A stretch of 64,000 nucleotides of DNA from Nitratidesulfovibrio termitidis HI1 (GTDB lineage: Bacteria > Desulfobacterota > Desulfovibrionia > Desulfovibrionales > Desulfovibrionaceae): NCBI RefSeq assembly GCF_000504305.1, contig NZ_KI632512.1, forward strand, positions 3,722,404-3,786,403, given 5' to 3'. Of the stretch, positions 15,534 to 51,427 are shown one piece after another. The notes beneath the pieces were generated by a model. The model was given only the letters and a program-made list of their open reading frames with translations. It ran no database searches and was not told the origin of the DNA. Positions within the stretch are counted from its first letter, which is position 1; each line of letters begins with the position of its first letter. Made by a program: the position numbers and the translations under genes.

Positions 15534-15767
15534 CGTTGGACTTCGGCTGCCGACGTTGCCGCGCACGTCCCGACGTGACCACCGGAGGCGGGGGCATGCC
15601 TGTGTACGGAGTTGGAAGGGGCAGAAGTTGGCCGCCATTTCCACGTTCGGGCACTTCGATCTGTTTTTTTCAGCATGTTTGTTTTGGTAGCTATTGGTTT
15701 TGAGAAGATTTTATAGGTAATGATTGGTTTGTTTCAGTCGCTATTCAGGATTGATGGTGTCAATCCT

Positions 15768-15797
15768 TGTGCACGTTTTCTACTTGTTTCGTGACTG
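15768..15797. promoter_or_regulatory. Predicted TunR site upstream of tupA
   Basis: CACG at 15772-15775 and CGTG at 15790-15793 are separated by exactly 14 T-rich bases. This is the same core and spacing as the 30-bp palindrome beside tunR at 49952-49981, though the outer four bases of each half are not conserved. It sits in an AT-rich stretch (about 15655-15820), unusual for this genome, that must hold the tup promoter. A possible -10 (TAACAAT) follows about 10 bp after the site, which would suit an activator bound at the -35 region. Confidence 0.5.
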
Positions 15798-15885: not shown

Positions 15886-16707
15886 ATGCGTCGTCTGCTT
15901 CTCGTTCTTTGCCTGTTCACCGTATTGCTGCCCGCGCAGTCCATGGCGGCGGACAAGGTGCTGATGATGGCCACCACCACCAGCACCGCCGATACCGGCC
16001 TGCTCGACGACCTCGCCCCCGCCTTTCAGAAGGAAACGGGCATCGAGCTCAAGTTTACAGCCACGGGCACCGGCAAGGCGCTGGAAATGGGCCGCAGCTG
16101 CAACGTGGACGTGCTGCTGGTGCACGACCCCGTGGCAGAGGCCAAGTTTGTGGGCGATGGCTTCGGCATTAACCGCACCCAGCTGATGTATAACGATTTC
16201 GTTATGGTGGGCCCCAAGGCCGATCCGGCGGGCGTGAAGGGCAAGACCGTGGCCGAGGCCATGAAGACCCTGTCCGCGGGCAAGGCCCCGTTCATCAGCC
16301 GCGGCGACAAGTCCGGCACCCACGCGCTGGAACTGCGCCTGTGGAAGGAAACCGGCGTGGGCGTGCCCGAAGGCAAGGAATGGTACGTGGAAGCCGGGCA
16401 GGGCATGATGCGCACCATCGCCATGTGCGCGGAAAAGAACGGCTACACCCTGACCGACCGGGGCACCTGGATCAAGTACGAGGCGGGCCTGAAGGAAGCC
16501 GGGCCGCTGGCCATCGTGGTGGAAAAGGACCAGAAGCTGTTCAACCAGTACAGCTCCATCACCGTGAACCCGGGCAAGTGCCCCTCGGCCAAGGCCGACC
16601 TGGCCGACGCCTTCACCAAGTGGATGGCCAGCCCCTCCACCCAGAAGCGCATTGCCGACTTCAAGCTGATGGAAAAGCCGCTGTTTACGCCCAACGCGGG
16701 CAAGTAA
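15886..16707 (+). CDS. tupA: Tungstate ABC transporter, substrate-binding protein
   Basis: A 273-residue periplasmic binding protein for tungstate. A signal peptide (MRRLLLVLCLFTVLLPAQSMA, cut near AMA-AD) is followed by MMATTTSTADTGLLD, the TTTS motif typical of TupA oxyanion binding. RGDKSGTHALE and AGQGMMRTI match the usual second binding segments. An ATG 63 bases upstream is in frame, but the ATG at 15886 follows GGAGG and gives a proper signal peptide. Tungstate is needed for formate dehydrogenases and aldehyde oxidoreductases in sulfate reducers. tupB and tupC follow. The AT-rich 5' region holds a predicted TunR site. Confidence 0.93.
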   Translation: MRRLLLVLCLFTVLLPAQSMAADKVLMMATTTSTADTGLLDDLAPAFQKETGIELKFTATGTGKALEMGRSCNVDVLLVHDPVAEAKFVGDGFGINRTQLMYNDFVMVGPKADPAGVKGKTVAEAMKTLSAGKAPFISRGDKSGTHALELRLWKETGVGVPEGKEWYVEAGQGMMRTIAMCAEKNGYTLTDRGTWIKYEAGLKEAGPLAIVVEKDQKLFNQYSSITVNPGKCPSAKADLADAFTKWMASPSTQKRIADFKLMEKPLFTPNAGK

Positions 16708-16920: not shown

Positions 16921-17616
16921 ATGGATTATCTGCTCGACGGCCTTGCCACCGCCCTGCACCTTCTGGTCAGGGGCGATGCCGAAACCTTCTCCGCCGTGTG
17001 GATCACCCTTGCGGCGTCGGGAATGTCCATTGCAGCGTGCCTTGCCATCGGCGCGCCGCTGGGCTTCCTGATCGGCTACCACGATTTTCCCGGTCGCCGG
17101 GCCGTGCGCATTGCCGTGGATACGGCGCTGTGCTTCCCCACCGTGGTCATCGGCCTGCTGGTGTACCTGCTGCTGTCGCGGCAGGGCCCGCTGGGCGGCC
17201 TGGGACTGTTGTTCACCATTCCCGGCATGTCCGTGGGCCTGACGCTGCTGGGAATACCCATCGTCATGGCCATGACCGCGCTGGCCGTGGAACAGGCCGA
17301 TGCCCGCCTGCGCCTGACCCTGCTCACCCTGGGGGCCGATGGGCGCCAGATGCTTTTCGCCACCCTGTGGGAAACCCGCTACCACCTGATGCTGGCTGGG
17401 GTTGCGGCCTTCGGACGCATCGTGTCCGAGGTGGGCATTTCCATGATGGTGGGGGGCAACATCAAGTGGCACACCCGCACCATCACCACGGCCATCGCGC
17501 TGGAAACGGGCAAGGGCGACTACGCCCTGGGCATCGCGCTGGGGCTGGTGCTGCTGGCCATTGCCCTGCTGCTGAACCTTGTGCTGGCGGGGTTGCGCAG
17601 GAGGGCCGGGCGATGA
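16921..17616 (+). CDS. tupB: Tungstate ABC transporter permease
   Basis: A 231-residue inner-membrane permease with five to six hydrophobic spans. The cytoplasmic EAA-type loop near residue 140 (TLGADGRQMLFATLWETR) contacts the ATPase. It lies 213 bp after tupA, and its last bases overlap tupC (ATGA at 17613-17616). The sequence fits the TupB/ModB-like group rather than sulfate CysT by its gene order with TupA. The gap between tupA and tupB shows no gene and may allow more TupA than TupB to be made. Confidence 0.9.
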   Translation: MDYLLDGLATALHLLVRGDAETFSAVWITLAASGMSIAACLAIGAPLGFLIGYHDFPGRRAVRIAVDTALCFPTVVIGLLVYLLLSRQGPLGGLGLLFTIPGMSVGLTLLGIPIVMAMTALAVEQADARLRLTLLTLGADGRQMLFATLWETRYHLMLAGVAAFGRIVSEVGISMMVGGNIKWHTRTITTAIALETGKGDYALGIALGLVLLAIALLLNLVLAGLRRRAGR

Positions 17617-18479
17617 GCGGACCCGAGATGCGAAATGCGCCCCCGACGTCTTCGGAGATGCGCATGTCCGAGCTTGTCGATGATGCCCCTGCGGCGGGAC
17701 TGGAACCCTTGCCGGATGCGGCATCGAGCGGGCAGTCCGCTGCGGAGTCGAGTTCCGGCGTGCTGTGCGCCCGTTGTCACCAGCCGCTCTATCGGCTGGA
17801 GGACGTGGTGTGCCGGTACGGCGAACGCACCGTGCTTGACGTGCCCCGGCTGGACATCGCCGCCGGGGGCATCACCGGGGTGGTGGGGCCCAACGGCGGG
17901 GGCAAGTCCACCCTGCTGCGCCTGCTGGCCCTGCTGGACGCCCCCTGCCAGGGCGGACTGCACTTTGCGGGTGAAGCCGTGGGGCCTTTGTCTTCAGCGC
18001 GCACGGCGGATCTGCGCCGTTCGGTGACCCTGCTGTTGCAGGAACCCTACCTGTTGCGTCGCAGCGTGTACGACAACGTGGCCTTCGGCCTGACAGTGCG
18101 GTCCGGGCGGGCCGGGTGGTCCGGCCTGTCTCTGCGATCCGGGCGCGGCGTGCACGAAACGGCGGATGCCGTGCGTGCGGCGCTGGAACTGGTGGCCCTG
18201 GACCCGGACGTGTTCCTGCGCCGCCGCTGGTTCGAACTTTCCGGCGGTGAGGCCCAGCGCGTGGCCCTGGCCGCCCGGCTGGCCTTTTCGCCGCGCGTGC
18301 TGCTGATGGACGAACCCACGGCCAGCCTGGACGAGGAAAGCGCCGCGCGCATCGCCGACGCCGCCCGCGCCGTGGCCCGGCGGGGCACCACGGTCATCGT
18401 GGTCTCGCACGACCGCGACTGGCTGGAACCGCTGGCGGGCCGCATCCTGAAGGTGCGGCGGGGGCTGGTGGAAGGGTAG
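17613..18479 (+). CDS. tupC: Tungstate ABC transporter ATP-binding protein
   Basis: A 288-residue ABC ATPase. Walker A is GPNGGGKST near residues 91-99, the signature is LSGGEAQRVALAARL near 208-222, Walker B is VLLMDEPTASLDEES, and the switch His lies in VVSHDRDW. About 65 extra N-terminal residues precede the usual YRLEDVVCRYGERTVLD start and include a CARCHQ pair of cysteines not expected in this family. The start at 17613 overlaps the tupB stop, so translational coupling is likely. A terminator hairpin follows at 18583. Confidence 0.92.
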   Translation: MSGPEMRNAPPTSSEMRMSELVDDAPAAGLEPLPDAASSGQSAAESSSGVLCARCHQPLYRLEDVVCRYGERTVLDVPRLDIAAGGITGVVGPNGGGKSTLLRLLALLDAPCQGGLHFAGEAVGPLSSARTADLRRSVTLLLQEPYLLRRSVYDNVAFGLTVRSGRAGWSGLSLRSGRGVHETADAVRAALELVALDPDVFLRRRWFELSGGEAQRVALAARLAFSPRVLLMDEPTASLDEESAARIADAARAVARRGTTVIVVSHDRDWLEPLAGRILKVRRGLVEG

Positions 18480-48848: not shown

Positions 48849-49802
48849 CTACCTGAAAAACTCCACCACGTACTTCCCCGCCGTGAACAGCAGGATGACG
48901 CACAGCATCCACTTGATCAGGTTTGCGGGCACGTGCTTCTGGCAGCGCGCGCCCAGGTACATGCCCGCCATGCCGCCAATGCCCAGCAAGAGGCCCAGTG
49001 TCCAGTCCGGGGCCACGGACATGTGCGGGTACAGCGGCGCGATGGCCATGTAGAAGGACACGCCCGCCACCGAGGTGACGAAGGTGCCCATCAGGGCCGC
49101 GCCCGCCACGGTGTACACCGGCAGCCCGAAGAACGAGACGAAGAACGGCGCAATGATGGCCCCGCCGCCAATACCGTACACCCCGCCCACGATCCCCACG
49201 ATGAAGCTCAGGCTGAAGATGCCCACGGTGCGAAAGCTGTAGGTTTCGCCGTAGAAGCTGTACGAGATGCGCGACAGGCAGCACTCGTTCATGCACACGG
49301 CTGGCAGGTCGTCGGGGTTCTTGCCTTCCGCCGCCGCCTTTTCGCGGTGGGTGCGCACCAGCGCGCGGAACTTTTCCTCCGCCGTGGCCTTGCCGTTGCC
49401 CGCCTTCTTCTTTGTCAGGTCGCGCACCATGCGCAGGGCGATGTAGGCCAGCACGCACGCGGCAAACAGCTTGAAGTCGCGCGCGTTGGGCAGGTACGTC
49501 ACCCGCACGAAGGCCCCTATCAGCACCCCCGGCAACGTGCCGATGATCACCACCCACGTCAGCGGCCAGACCATGCGCCCTTCGCGGATGTAGCGATACA
49601 CCCCGCTGGGAATGGCCACCACGTTGTAGAACTGGTTGGTGGCGCTGACGGACGGGTTCACGTAGCCCAGAAAGGACATCTGGAAGGGCAGCAACAGGAA
49701 CGCGCCGGACACGCCCCCCATGGACATGAAGAACGACACCACGAAGGCCACCAGCGGCGGTAGCCACGGTTCCGCGTGTATGCCTGCGACGGGGAAGTAC
49801 AT
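48849..49802 (-). CDS. TSUP-family anion transporter (TauE/SafE)
   Basis: A 317-residue membrane protein with eight to nine spans, of the TSUP/TauE family that moves sulfonates, sulfite or other anions. The paired motifs FFMSMGGVSGAFLLLPF and VYGIGGGAIIAPFF mark the two halves. A cytoplasmic loop of about 60 residues (about 125-185) contains the cysteine cluster CMNECC, not typical of the family core. An AGGAGG site precedes the ATG. It is divergent from tunR, with predicted TunR sites between them; TSUP genes are reported targets of TunR repression, so a role in tungstate or molybdate export is plausible. Confidence 0.9.
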   Translation of the reverse strand: MYFPVAGIHAEPWLPPLVAFVVSFFMSMGGVSGAFLLLPFQMSFLGYVNPSVSATNQFYNVVAIPSGVYRYIREGRMVWPLTWVVIIGTLPGVLIGAFVRVTYLPNARDFKLFAACVLAYIALRMVRDLTKKKAGNGKATAEEKFRALVRTHREKAAAEGKNPDDLPAVCMNECCLSRISYSFYGETYSFRTVGIFSLSFIVGIVGGVYGIGGGAIIAPFFVSFFGLPVYTVAGAALMGTFVTSVAGVSFYMAIAPLYPHMSVAPDWTLGLLLGIGGMAGMYLGARCQKHVPANLIKWMLCVILLFTAGKYVVEFFR

Positions 49803-49951: not shown

Positions 49952-49981
49952 TTGACACGCTTTTTATAATCTTCGTGTCAA
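49952..49981. promoter_or_regulatory. Predicted TunR operator, perfect palindrome
   Basis: TTGACACG and CGTGTCAA face each other across exactly 14 AT-rich bases, giving a 30-bp site with perfect 8-bp half-sites. It lies 150 bp before the TSUP start codon in a rare AT-rich stretch that must hold its promoter. The published TunR motif is 30 bp long; I do not recall its sequence, so the match is of length and context. Confidence 0.65.
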
Positions 49982-50007
49982 TTGAAAGATACGACACGGC
50001 CTGTTCG

Positions 50008-50037
50008 TTGTCACGGATTATTTTATTTTCATGTCTG
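50008..50037. promoter_or_regulatory. Second predicted TunR site, degenerate
   Basis: TTGTCACG and CATGTCTG with the same 14-base AT-rich spacer. Twelve of sixteen half-site bases agree with the site at 49952. The two centres are 56 bp apart, which would allow one regulator to act on both divergent genes. Confidence 0.5.
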
Positions 50038-50133
50038 TGCGCGAAATGAATCACGGCTTTGATTTTCGCGCATCTGCGCCTATATGGTAGAAATTCTGGC
50101 AACGAACGGGCCGCACCCGGATTACAATTGGGC

Positions 50134-50338: not shown

Positions 50339-51427
50339 ATGCGACAGGACGACAGCCTCGAACGAATCTGGGAAGCGCTGGCCGAAAACGTGGCGGAACG
50401 CCGCCACAACCCGGCGGGCATGCTCTCCATTCCCGACGACGTGAAGTATCTGGACACGGTGGAGCTGGCCCGGCTGGAAGAAGCCTTCCGCCTGTGGGCC
50501 GCCCGCCCGGCACGGGGCGACGTGCGCCGCTCGCGCCTGCGCATGCTGCTGGTGTTCCTGCTCATTCGCCACACCGGGGCGCGCCTGGGCGAGGTGCTGG
50601 CTCTGGCCCCGGGCCGCGACATCGACACGGCGCGTGGCGTGGCGTACCTCGGCGAGCCGCAGCGCGAGGTGCAACTGCCGCCCGACCTCGTCACCCAACT
50701 TGCCGACCTGCTGGACGAAGCCGTGGCGGGCGAGGGCGAACACCCCTTTGCCGTGGACCAGGCCCATGTGCGCCGCAAGTTCTACGAGCGCGCCCACGAC
50801 TGCGACCTTGCCCCCGACCTTGCCAACCCCAGCGCCCTGCGCCGCTCGCGGGCCATCGAACTGCTGCGGTCGGGCCTGCCGCTGCCCGTGGTGCAGCGCC
50901 TGCTGGGCCATTCCACGGCCAGCCTGACGGCGGCGTACATCGATGTTTCGACAGAGGACATGCAGCGCATGGTGGGCCACGCGCTGGACCGCGAGCAGCG
51001 CCGCCGCACCAGCGCGCGCAACGCCTTTTACGGGCGCATCGCGGCGGTGGTGCGCGGCGACGTGCAGTCGGTGGTTTCGGTGCAGACGCCGTCGGGCATC
51101 CGGGTGGCCTCGGTCATCACCAACGACAGTCTGGACAATCTGGGGCTGCGCCCCGGCGTGTTCGCGGCGGCAGAGGTGAAGGCCCCCTGGGTGGTGCTGA
51201 CCGTGGGCAGCGAAGCCCCGTCGTCCACGGCGGGCAACGTGTACCCGGCCACCATCGCCAAGGTGGTGGTGGGCGCGGCCACGGCGGAAGCGGTGGCGCG
51301 CCTTGCGGACGGCACGGAAATCTGCTCGGTGCTTACGGCGGACCGGGTGCGCGCGCTGGACCTGGCCGTGGGCACCCCGGTGTGGGTGCTGATCAACGTC
51401 TTTTCGGTCATCCTGAACGTAAGCTGA
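50339..51427 (+). CDS. tunR: Tungstate-responsive regulator, recombinase-like
   Basis: A 362-residue protein joining a XerC/D-like domain (about 35-220) to two Mop/TOBE oxyanion-binding domains (about 225-290 and 299-362). This architecture defines TunR, a factor known from sulfate reducers that controls molybdate and tungstate genes. Of the recombinase residues, Arg82 (TGARLGEV), Arg168, His191 (LLGHS) and Tyr200 remain, but the HxxR histidine is S165 and the next conserved His is R169, so strand cleavage is doubtful. The Mop pair opens NAFYGRIAAVVRG and GNVYPATIAKVVVG. It is divergent from the TSUP gene. A ribosome site is weak (ACGGGACACCC before the ATG). Confidence 0.9.
   Translation: MRQDDSLERIWEALAENVAERRHNPAGMLSIPDDVKYLDTVELARLEEAFRLWAARPARGDVRRSRLRMLLVFLLIRHTGARLGEVLALAPGRDIDTARGVAYLGEPQREVQLPPDLVTQLADLLDEAVAGEGEHPFAVDQAHVRRKFYERAHDCDLAPDLANPSALRRSRAIELLRSGLPLPVVQRLLGHSTASLTAAYIDVSTEDMQRMVGHALDREQRRRTSARNAFYGRIAAVVRGDVQSVVSVQTPSGIRVASVITNDSLDNLGLRPGVFAAAEVKAPWVVLTVGSEAPSSTAGNVYPATIAKVVVGAATAEAVARLADGTEICSVLTADRVRALDLAVGTPVWVLINVFSVILNVS

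Follow-up and report, generated by a model that had tools for sequence, protein, structure and literature searches.

Molybdate and tungstate poison sulfate reducers, yet traces of them are needed. The locus analyzed here raises the question of whether a single oxyanion-sensing regulator of the TunR type acts both on the TSUP transporter gene beside it and on a distant operon, tup. We analyzed a window of 64,000 nucleotides (the whole stretch of DNA under study, C1:3722404-3786403 in a genome of 4,257,954 bases), for which three 30-bp sites of the same geometry had been proposed to link tunR, the TSUP gene and tup. The genome groups with Nitratidesulfovibrio.

The tunR gene and its divergent TSUP neighbor

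The following gene pair was considered:
48849..49802, minus strand: TSUP family transporter gene, with a TauE/SafE match
50339..51427, plus strand: tunR (TSUP-type), with an Xer-like DNA-binding domain and two TOBE/Mop stretches

In searches with family profiles, the window TunR matched Phage_integrase (45.3 bits) and had two TOBE stretches. Among solved structures, its TOBE part matched ModE (1h9j, 1o7l) and the other part matched XerD. These matches uphold the assignment of the gene at 50339-51427 to the TunR type made in the original prediction. The protein thus shares the oxyanion-sensing TOBE/Mop part with ModE and differs from it in the DNA-binding part, which is Xer-like and not of the ModE type. 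Its five closest named relatives are from Nitratidesulfovibrio and Desulfovibrio sp., at 96-99% identity. In a tree of 80 of the 92 aligned TunR proteins, it fell in a clade of 38 members with a support of 0.99, 31 of which are TSUP-linked.

In the 92-row alignment, in which some rows are near-identical and one gene is present twice, the catalytic Tyr position was Y in 42 rows and F in 30, and at the first Arg position 29 rows had K, the other 63 having R. At the position equated by eye with the His of HxxR, His was absent from the six commonest residues. This erosion of the catalytic set suggests that the TunR family is not a recombinase. The window TunR itself retains residues aligned by eye with the recombinase Arg, Arg, His and Tyr, of which the Tyr is inconsistent in the family. 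The TSUP protein may be an exporter, as had been proposed; the TauE/SafE match gives no transport direction.

Three 30-bp sites in the window

The three sites are as follows:
49952..49981: predicted TunR operator 1, a perfect palindrome TTGACACG-N14-CGTGTCAA, with the predicted TSUP start at its edge
50008..50037: predicted TunR operator 2, TTGTCACG-N14-CATGTCTG, containing the -35 element of the predicted TSUP promoter
15768..15797: TunR-like site in front of tupA, TGTGCACG-N14-CGTGACTG, within a near-invariant island

In full, they read TTGACACG-CTTTTTATAATCTT-CGTGTCAA, TTGTCACG-GATTATTTTATTTT-CATGTCTG and TGTGCACG-TTTTCTACTTGTTT-CGTGACTG, respectively, and both sequences and coordinates agree with the first description. 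Operators 1 and 2 lie 56 bp apart, start to start.

The core pattern CACG-N14-CGTG occurred six times in the window (3.65 expected), a number reached by 15 of 100 shuffles. In the genome, CACG-N14-CGTGNC was found 114 times on the forward and 115 times on the reverse strand, against 50 and 57 for the backwards-read pattern. Since chance accounts for its number in the window and the genome holds many copies, we rejected the core alone as evidence. With the extended half-sites, the genome scan suggested earlier did go beyond chance: TTGNCACG-N14-CGTGNCAA had a single exact match in the 4.26-Mb genome.

We then used a model, R1, made from 48 sites of other genera (48 of 50 located sites; L062 and L072 were dropped as poor). 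With filters off, the only matches of R1 in the window at E<1, where E-values are rough, were the three sites (15.1, 11.9 and 11.1 bits); its next-best match scored 6.4 bits with an E-value of 2.3. When the 63,971 window positions were ranked with a matrix of other-genera sites, 49952, 50008 and 15768 took the top three places in that order, scoring 21.8, 17.3 and 11.5 (next position, 9.2); the matrix sites had been chosen by a CGTG-type consensus or by matrix score, so that the CGTG core is partly circular. On 24 control loci from the same genome, themselves chosen for loose pattern matches, R1 gave hits of 10.5 and 7.8 bits. Because of these control hits, R1 hits near 10 bits fall short of proof. 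R1 is also imperfect in that it misses a conserved site upstream of modB.

Conservation within the genus and recurrence across genera

Across eight genomes of the genus, 23 of 30 columns were invariant in site 1, 25 of 30 in site 2 and 26 of 30 in the tup site. The corresponding counts were 10/26 between sites 1 and 2, 2/30 and 5/72 in stretches toward TSUP, and 13/65 upstream of the tup site, the immediate flanks of which were conserved too (10/12 and 11/18 columns). To the right of operator 2, the stretch 50038-50110 had 44 of 73 columns invariant in the genus and no TunR-type site scored there; this block may be a leader or promoter of tunR, or a different element.

Two half-sites of eight bases separated by 14 (8-14-8), scoring at least 9, were present in 29 of 30 scanned loci with divergently oriented TSUP and tunR genes (27 of these loci are outside the genus). 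The loci had been selected for a TSUP neighbor, and 18 of them had also fed the matrix. All nine non-genus loci independent of the matrix carried such a site, with best scores of 15.6-21.4. The TSUP-linked locus L072 had no 8-14-8 site at a score of 9 or more, none was seen in L076, where TSUP and tunR are on the same strand, and in eight TunR loci of genus g26 without a TSUP match no site exceeded a score of 12 (of 16, on a simple scale). A 30-bp site of 8-14-8 geometry, of the length that had been ascribed to the TunR motif, is thus present beside TunR genes of many genera. At a score of at least 9, 22 of the 30 loci had one site only, so the operator pair is not general. Where two sites were present elsewhere, their spacing was 56, 56 and 55 bp in three g29 loci and 56 bp in G016, in which GTGACA-17-TATGCT is placed as in the window and the second site is weak (11.2).

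It is highly improbable that all three sites are chance matches in rare AT-rich DNA. The chance level of CACG-N14-CGTG taken alone and the 10.5-bit hit among the 24 control loci would fit such a reading, but the sites are conserved against diverged flanks, were hit by the independent model R1 and recur beside TSUP-tunR in other genera and orders. For the two tunR-adjacent sites, chance is already contradicted. Judged from their sequence, the sites at 49952 and 50008 are ordinary TunR-type operators of a textbook tunR/TSUP pair. The TunR/TSUP systems reported by Kazakov et al. (2013, J Bacteriol 195:4466) reportedly share with the window the Xer-like and ModE-like TOBE domains, the 30-bp inverted repeat, the divergent TSUP gene and an operator over the predicted promoter. 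At 49952 and 50008 there is no essential difference; the doubling of the operator, with a spacing of 56 bp, is minor.

A predicted TSUP promoter between the operators

A scan for sigma-70-like TSUP promoters found one, against 0.2 expected:
50009..50014, minus strand: predicted -35 element GTGACA of the leftward TSUP promoter, inside operator 2
49986..49991, minus strand: predicted -10 element TATCTT of the same promoter, between the operators

L042 and L043 share this geometry, as does L147 from another genus. In the proposed mechanism, TunR, with its tungstate/molybdate-sensing part and Xer-like DNA-binding domain, would bind both 30-bp operators between tunR and the divergent TSUP gene. The predicted promoter spans the operators, with its -35 element in operator 2 and its start at operator 1, and bound TunR would therefore block TSUP transcription. 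The arrangement is consistent with the repression of TSUP originally predicted. Oxyanion binding to the TOBE domains would change this block. TSUP-type TunRs are said to be repressors. At the tup operon, a weaker site of like kind would be read by the window TunR or by a mod-linked paralogue, beside a possible TaoR element. We regard this explanation as a whole, TunR at two TSUP operators and a weaker tup site, as probable; binding, repression, the tungstate effect and any action at tup are what we infer from sequence, conservation, motif and promoter geometry.

By eye, site 1 holds TATAAT on the tunR-ward strand in the eight genus genomes, preceded at 17 bases by a -35-like hexamer in some of them. 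Autoregulation of tunR is therefore possible.

The site upstream of tup

The tup operon consists of three genes:
15886..16707, plus strand: tupA, tungstate-binding protein (NCBIfam TupA, 330 bits; under the cut-off of 400)
16921..17616, plus strand: tupB, permease (TupB, 260.8 bits; cut-off 320)
17619..18479, plus strand: tupC, ATPase (best match TupC, 135 bits; cut-off 400; start codon unsettled)

All three score under the curated cut-offs, and the assignment of 15886 onward to tupABC is a probable one, made by best family. Two genomes of the genus have a further TupA-like gene (G066:C1:675018-675824 and G124:C286:1143-1955), with 39% identity to the window TupA.

R1 matched the tup site in all eight tup loci of the genus, and the island around the site was near-invariant in all eight genomes. 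On a genome-wide scale, the site taken alone is weak: a match of its strength, 11.9 bits, has an E-value of 2.3, such that about two hits of this strength are expected per genome. Its left arm fits the TunR motif poorly. Outside the genus, 7 of 61 tup upstream regions scored at least 11.8, against a mean of 0.125 and a maximum of 1 in 40 shuffle runs, and no TunR-type site was found at this threshold in the other 54. This analysis covered 69 of 70 upstream regions (L223 is without tupA), drawn from 110 genomes with a tupA match. The site was present in 3/3 genomes examined of g29, 1/1 of g41, 1/8 of g22, 1/5 of g30 and 1/2 of g16; in g22 (L101) it lies 335 bp from the gene. A TunR link at tup is plausible, and better supported than could be shown when it was first proposed.

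The search for a sigma-70-like promoter on the plus strand at tup gave none, and the site therefore does not indicate the sign of control there; tup and TSUP may be switched in opposite directions, as had been suggested.

Candidate regulators of tup

The original prediction invoked one regulator for tup and TSUP. The TunR type of the gene and the motif are supported and TSUP looks repressed; the word "one" is not supported, given a second TunR and a TaoR-type protein in the same genome. The second TunR gene, tunR2 (L134:4495-5829), encodes a different paralogue, 43% identical to the window TunR, and lies beside modB (249 bits, over the cut-off) and modC (by best family, under the cut-off). On the other side of tunR2, beyond a TrmO-type gene, is modA (over the cut-off), which may share the divergent tunR2 promoter region. 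The intervening TrmO-type gene (L134:3316-4329) matched TrmO_N at 140 bits.

Some TunRs reportedly activate modABC. The second TunR resembles such activators in its position beside modC and modB and in the conserved 30-bp sites before tunR2 and modB. The neighbors of both genes fit TSUP or mod genes as predicted TunR targets, with TSUP at the window TunR and modB/modC at the paralogue. The site upstream of tunR2 reads CGGTCACC-N14-CGTGACTG in six aligned genomes (with CGTGACAG in one), and that upstream of modB reads CGGTCACC-N14-CGTGCCTC in the six; the mod sites were aligned in six of the eight genus genomes, leaving out L129 (G112, where the contig ends) and G124. Mod-linked TunR paralogues across genera use the same 8-14-8 geometry.

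We compared the tup site with separate matrices for the two types. The TSUP-type matrix comprised 22 sites from 32 loci scanned; four of these sites (L063, L066, L074 and L075) are without a TSUP match, and in the tree two of them, L063 and L066, fall with the mod-linked paralogue. The mod-type matrix comprised 31 sites from 24 of 30 loci (L141, L146, L154, L171, L172 and L174 gave none); for four of the 24 loci (L143, L149, L151 and L155) the stretch examined contains no mod gene, and L151 groups with the TSUP clade. The tup site scored 11.3 with the TSUP-type and 10.0 with the mod-type matrix, or 11.1 and 10.1 when sites were regrouped by the tree. Since these scores are near-equal, the tup site is silent on which paralogue reads it.

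The tup site may be real and read by the mod-linked paralogue at L134:4495-5829, each paralogue having its own targets, a reading that we hold to be possible and somewhat short of an even chance. The right arm of the tup site, CGTGACTG, is that of the tunR2 site, and 59 of 62 mod-type half-sites carry A at position 5. The same CGTGACTG, however, also ends the TSUP-linked site of L065, and the TSUP-type matrix scores tup slightly higher. Moreover, two g29 genomes, G028 and G060, carry a tup site and have just one TunR detected at E<=1e-20, which is of the TSUP type, and at this threshold the TSUP-type TunR is therefore the sole tup reader found there.

The other alternative, which we judge just as tentatively, is that the tup island is an operator of TaoR/TupR (the DVU3193 type) or the tup core promoter, and that the only TunR operators are the two near tunR. 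In PMC10102598, DVU3193 of D. vulgaris Hildenborough, a close relative, is named tupR, the regulator of tup, and PMC11980592 gives the make-up of such a regulator as HTH plus PBP-like. This genome encodes a protein with an excisionase-type HTH_17 and PBP_like, a TaoR/TupR candidate by its domains, whose DNA-binding domain differs from that of TunR. TaoR and tupR (DVU3193) we take to be one protein, which fits the citation of the same work (Rajeev et al. 2019, Environ Microbiol 21:784) by PMC10102598 and PMC11980592. Such an operator or core promoter would also account for an island that exceeds the 30-mer on both sides, for the bad TunR fit of the left arm and for the 54 of 61 non-genus tup upstream regions without a site. 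Against it, R1, at E-values up to 5, found no site in 10 aldehyde oxidoreductase (AOR) loci (of 12) or in the TaoR-type gene locus, which indicates that the 30-mer is not an element shared by these loci; TunR-type sites at tup in other genera exceeded the shuffles; and it is a different block of the tup upstream region that resembles an AOR promoter:
15709..15753, plus strand: candidate TaoR operator, a block similar to the AOR promoter of a genus member; weak, and first noticed by eye

This block gave a local score of 17 with the AOR promoter of G038 in one of two orientations, against a mean of 10.1 and a best of 15 in 200 shuffles. We therefore consider that elements of both kinds, TaoR and TunR, are probably present at tup, although of all steps in our reading this is the one we are least sure of.

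Also rejected as a TunR target was the principal AOR promoter of the genus (found in L195 and its relatives), which has a conserved block and no TunR-type site. This block, of about 85 bases, contains GTCATG / GGCATGCCAT repeats and may be the operator of a different regulator.

Further predicted targets and a third TunR clade

A pre-filtered genome-wide search with R1, which missed the tup site, returned two places, site 1 of the window and a site upstream of a Mop gene:
L135:3807-3836 (genome C1:3259806 on): TunR-type site of mop, about 107 bp upstream of the Mop gene

The product of this gene matched Mop at 68.1 bits, over the cut-off. R1 found the mop site in seven of eight genus genomes, and that of L255 is degenerate. 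It fits the mod-type matrix (15.8) better than the TSUP-type matrix (12.4). In this genome, an extra GTCACG half-site lies 26 bp before the left half of the mop site.

In six genomes (five of six g42 genomes searched, and G126), a TunR-like gene immediately precedes tupA and tupB, in the same orientation:
L178, L180, L181, L182, L183 and L137: tup-linked TunR loci of two other genera

Four of these proteins were scanned; all four had TOBE matches and three had a sub-threshold Phage_integrase match. The six, together with one more member, formed a clade of their own with a support of 1.0. No clear 8-14-8 site was found upstream of their own genes in the six loci (best, 12 of 16 on the simple scale).

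Neither tup nor mop is reportedly among the targets named in the family description, which are mod and TSUP. New as predictions are the TunR-type sites found at these two loci and the TunR clade encoded just before tupAB in six genomes. From them, we consider it an evenly balanced proposal that the TunRs of the genus control tup and mop besides TSUP and mod, atop TaoR at tup, and that a TunR clade of related genera is dedicated to tup. If true, the TunR family would have shifted its targets between four oxyanion systems. Were TunR to act at tup and mop as well, a single family of sensors would govern uptake, storage and the TSUP route. A genome with two paralogues would then offer a clean system for studying how recombinase-derived DNA-binding domains divide targets with near-identical sites.

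Among other matches, L002 (one mismatch, C1:833464), about 340 bp from which a LysR-type HTH reading frame starts, was rejected as a target at 6.0 bits with R1. L004 scored 10.6 bits and lies upstream of a lactate permease frame.
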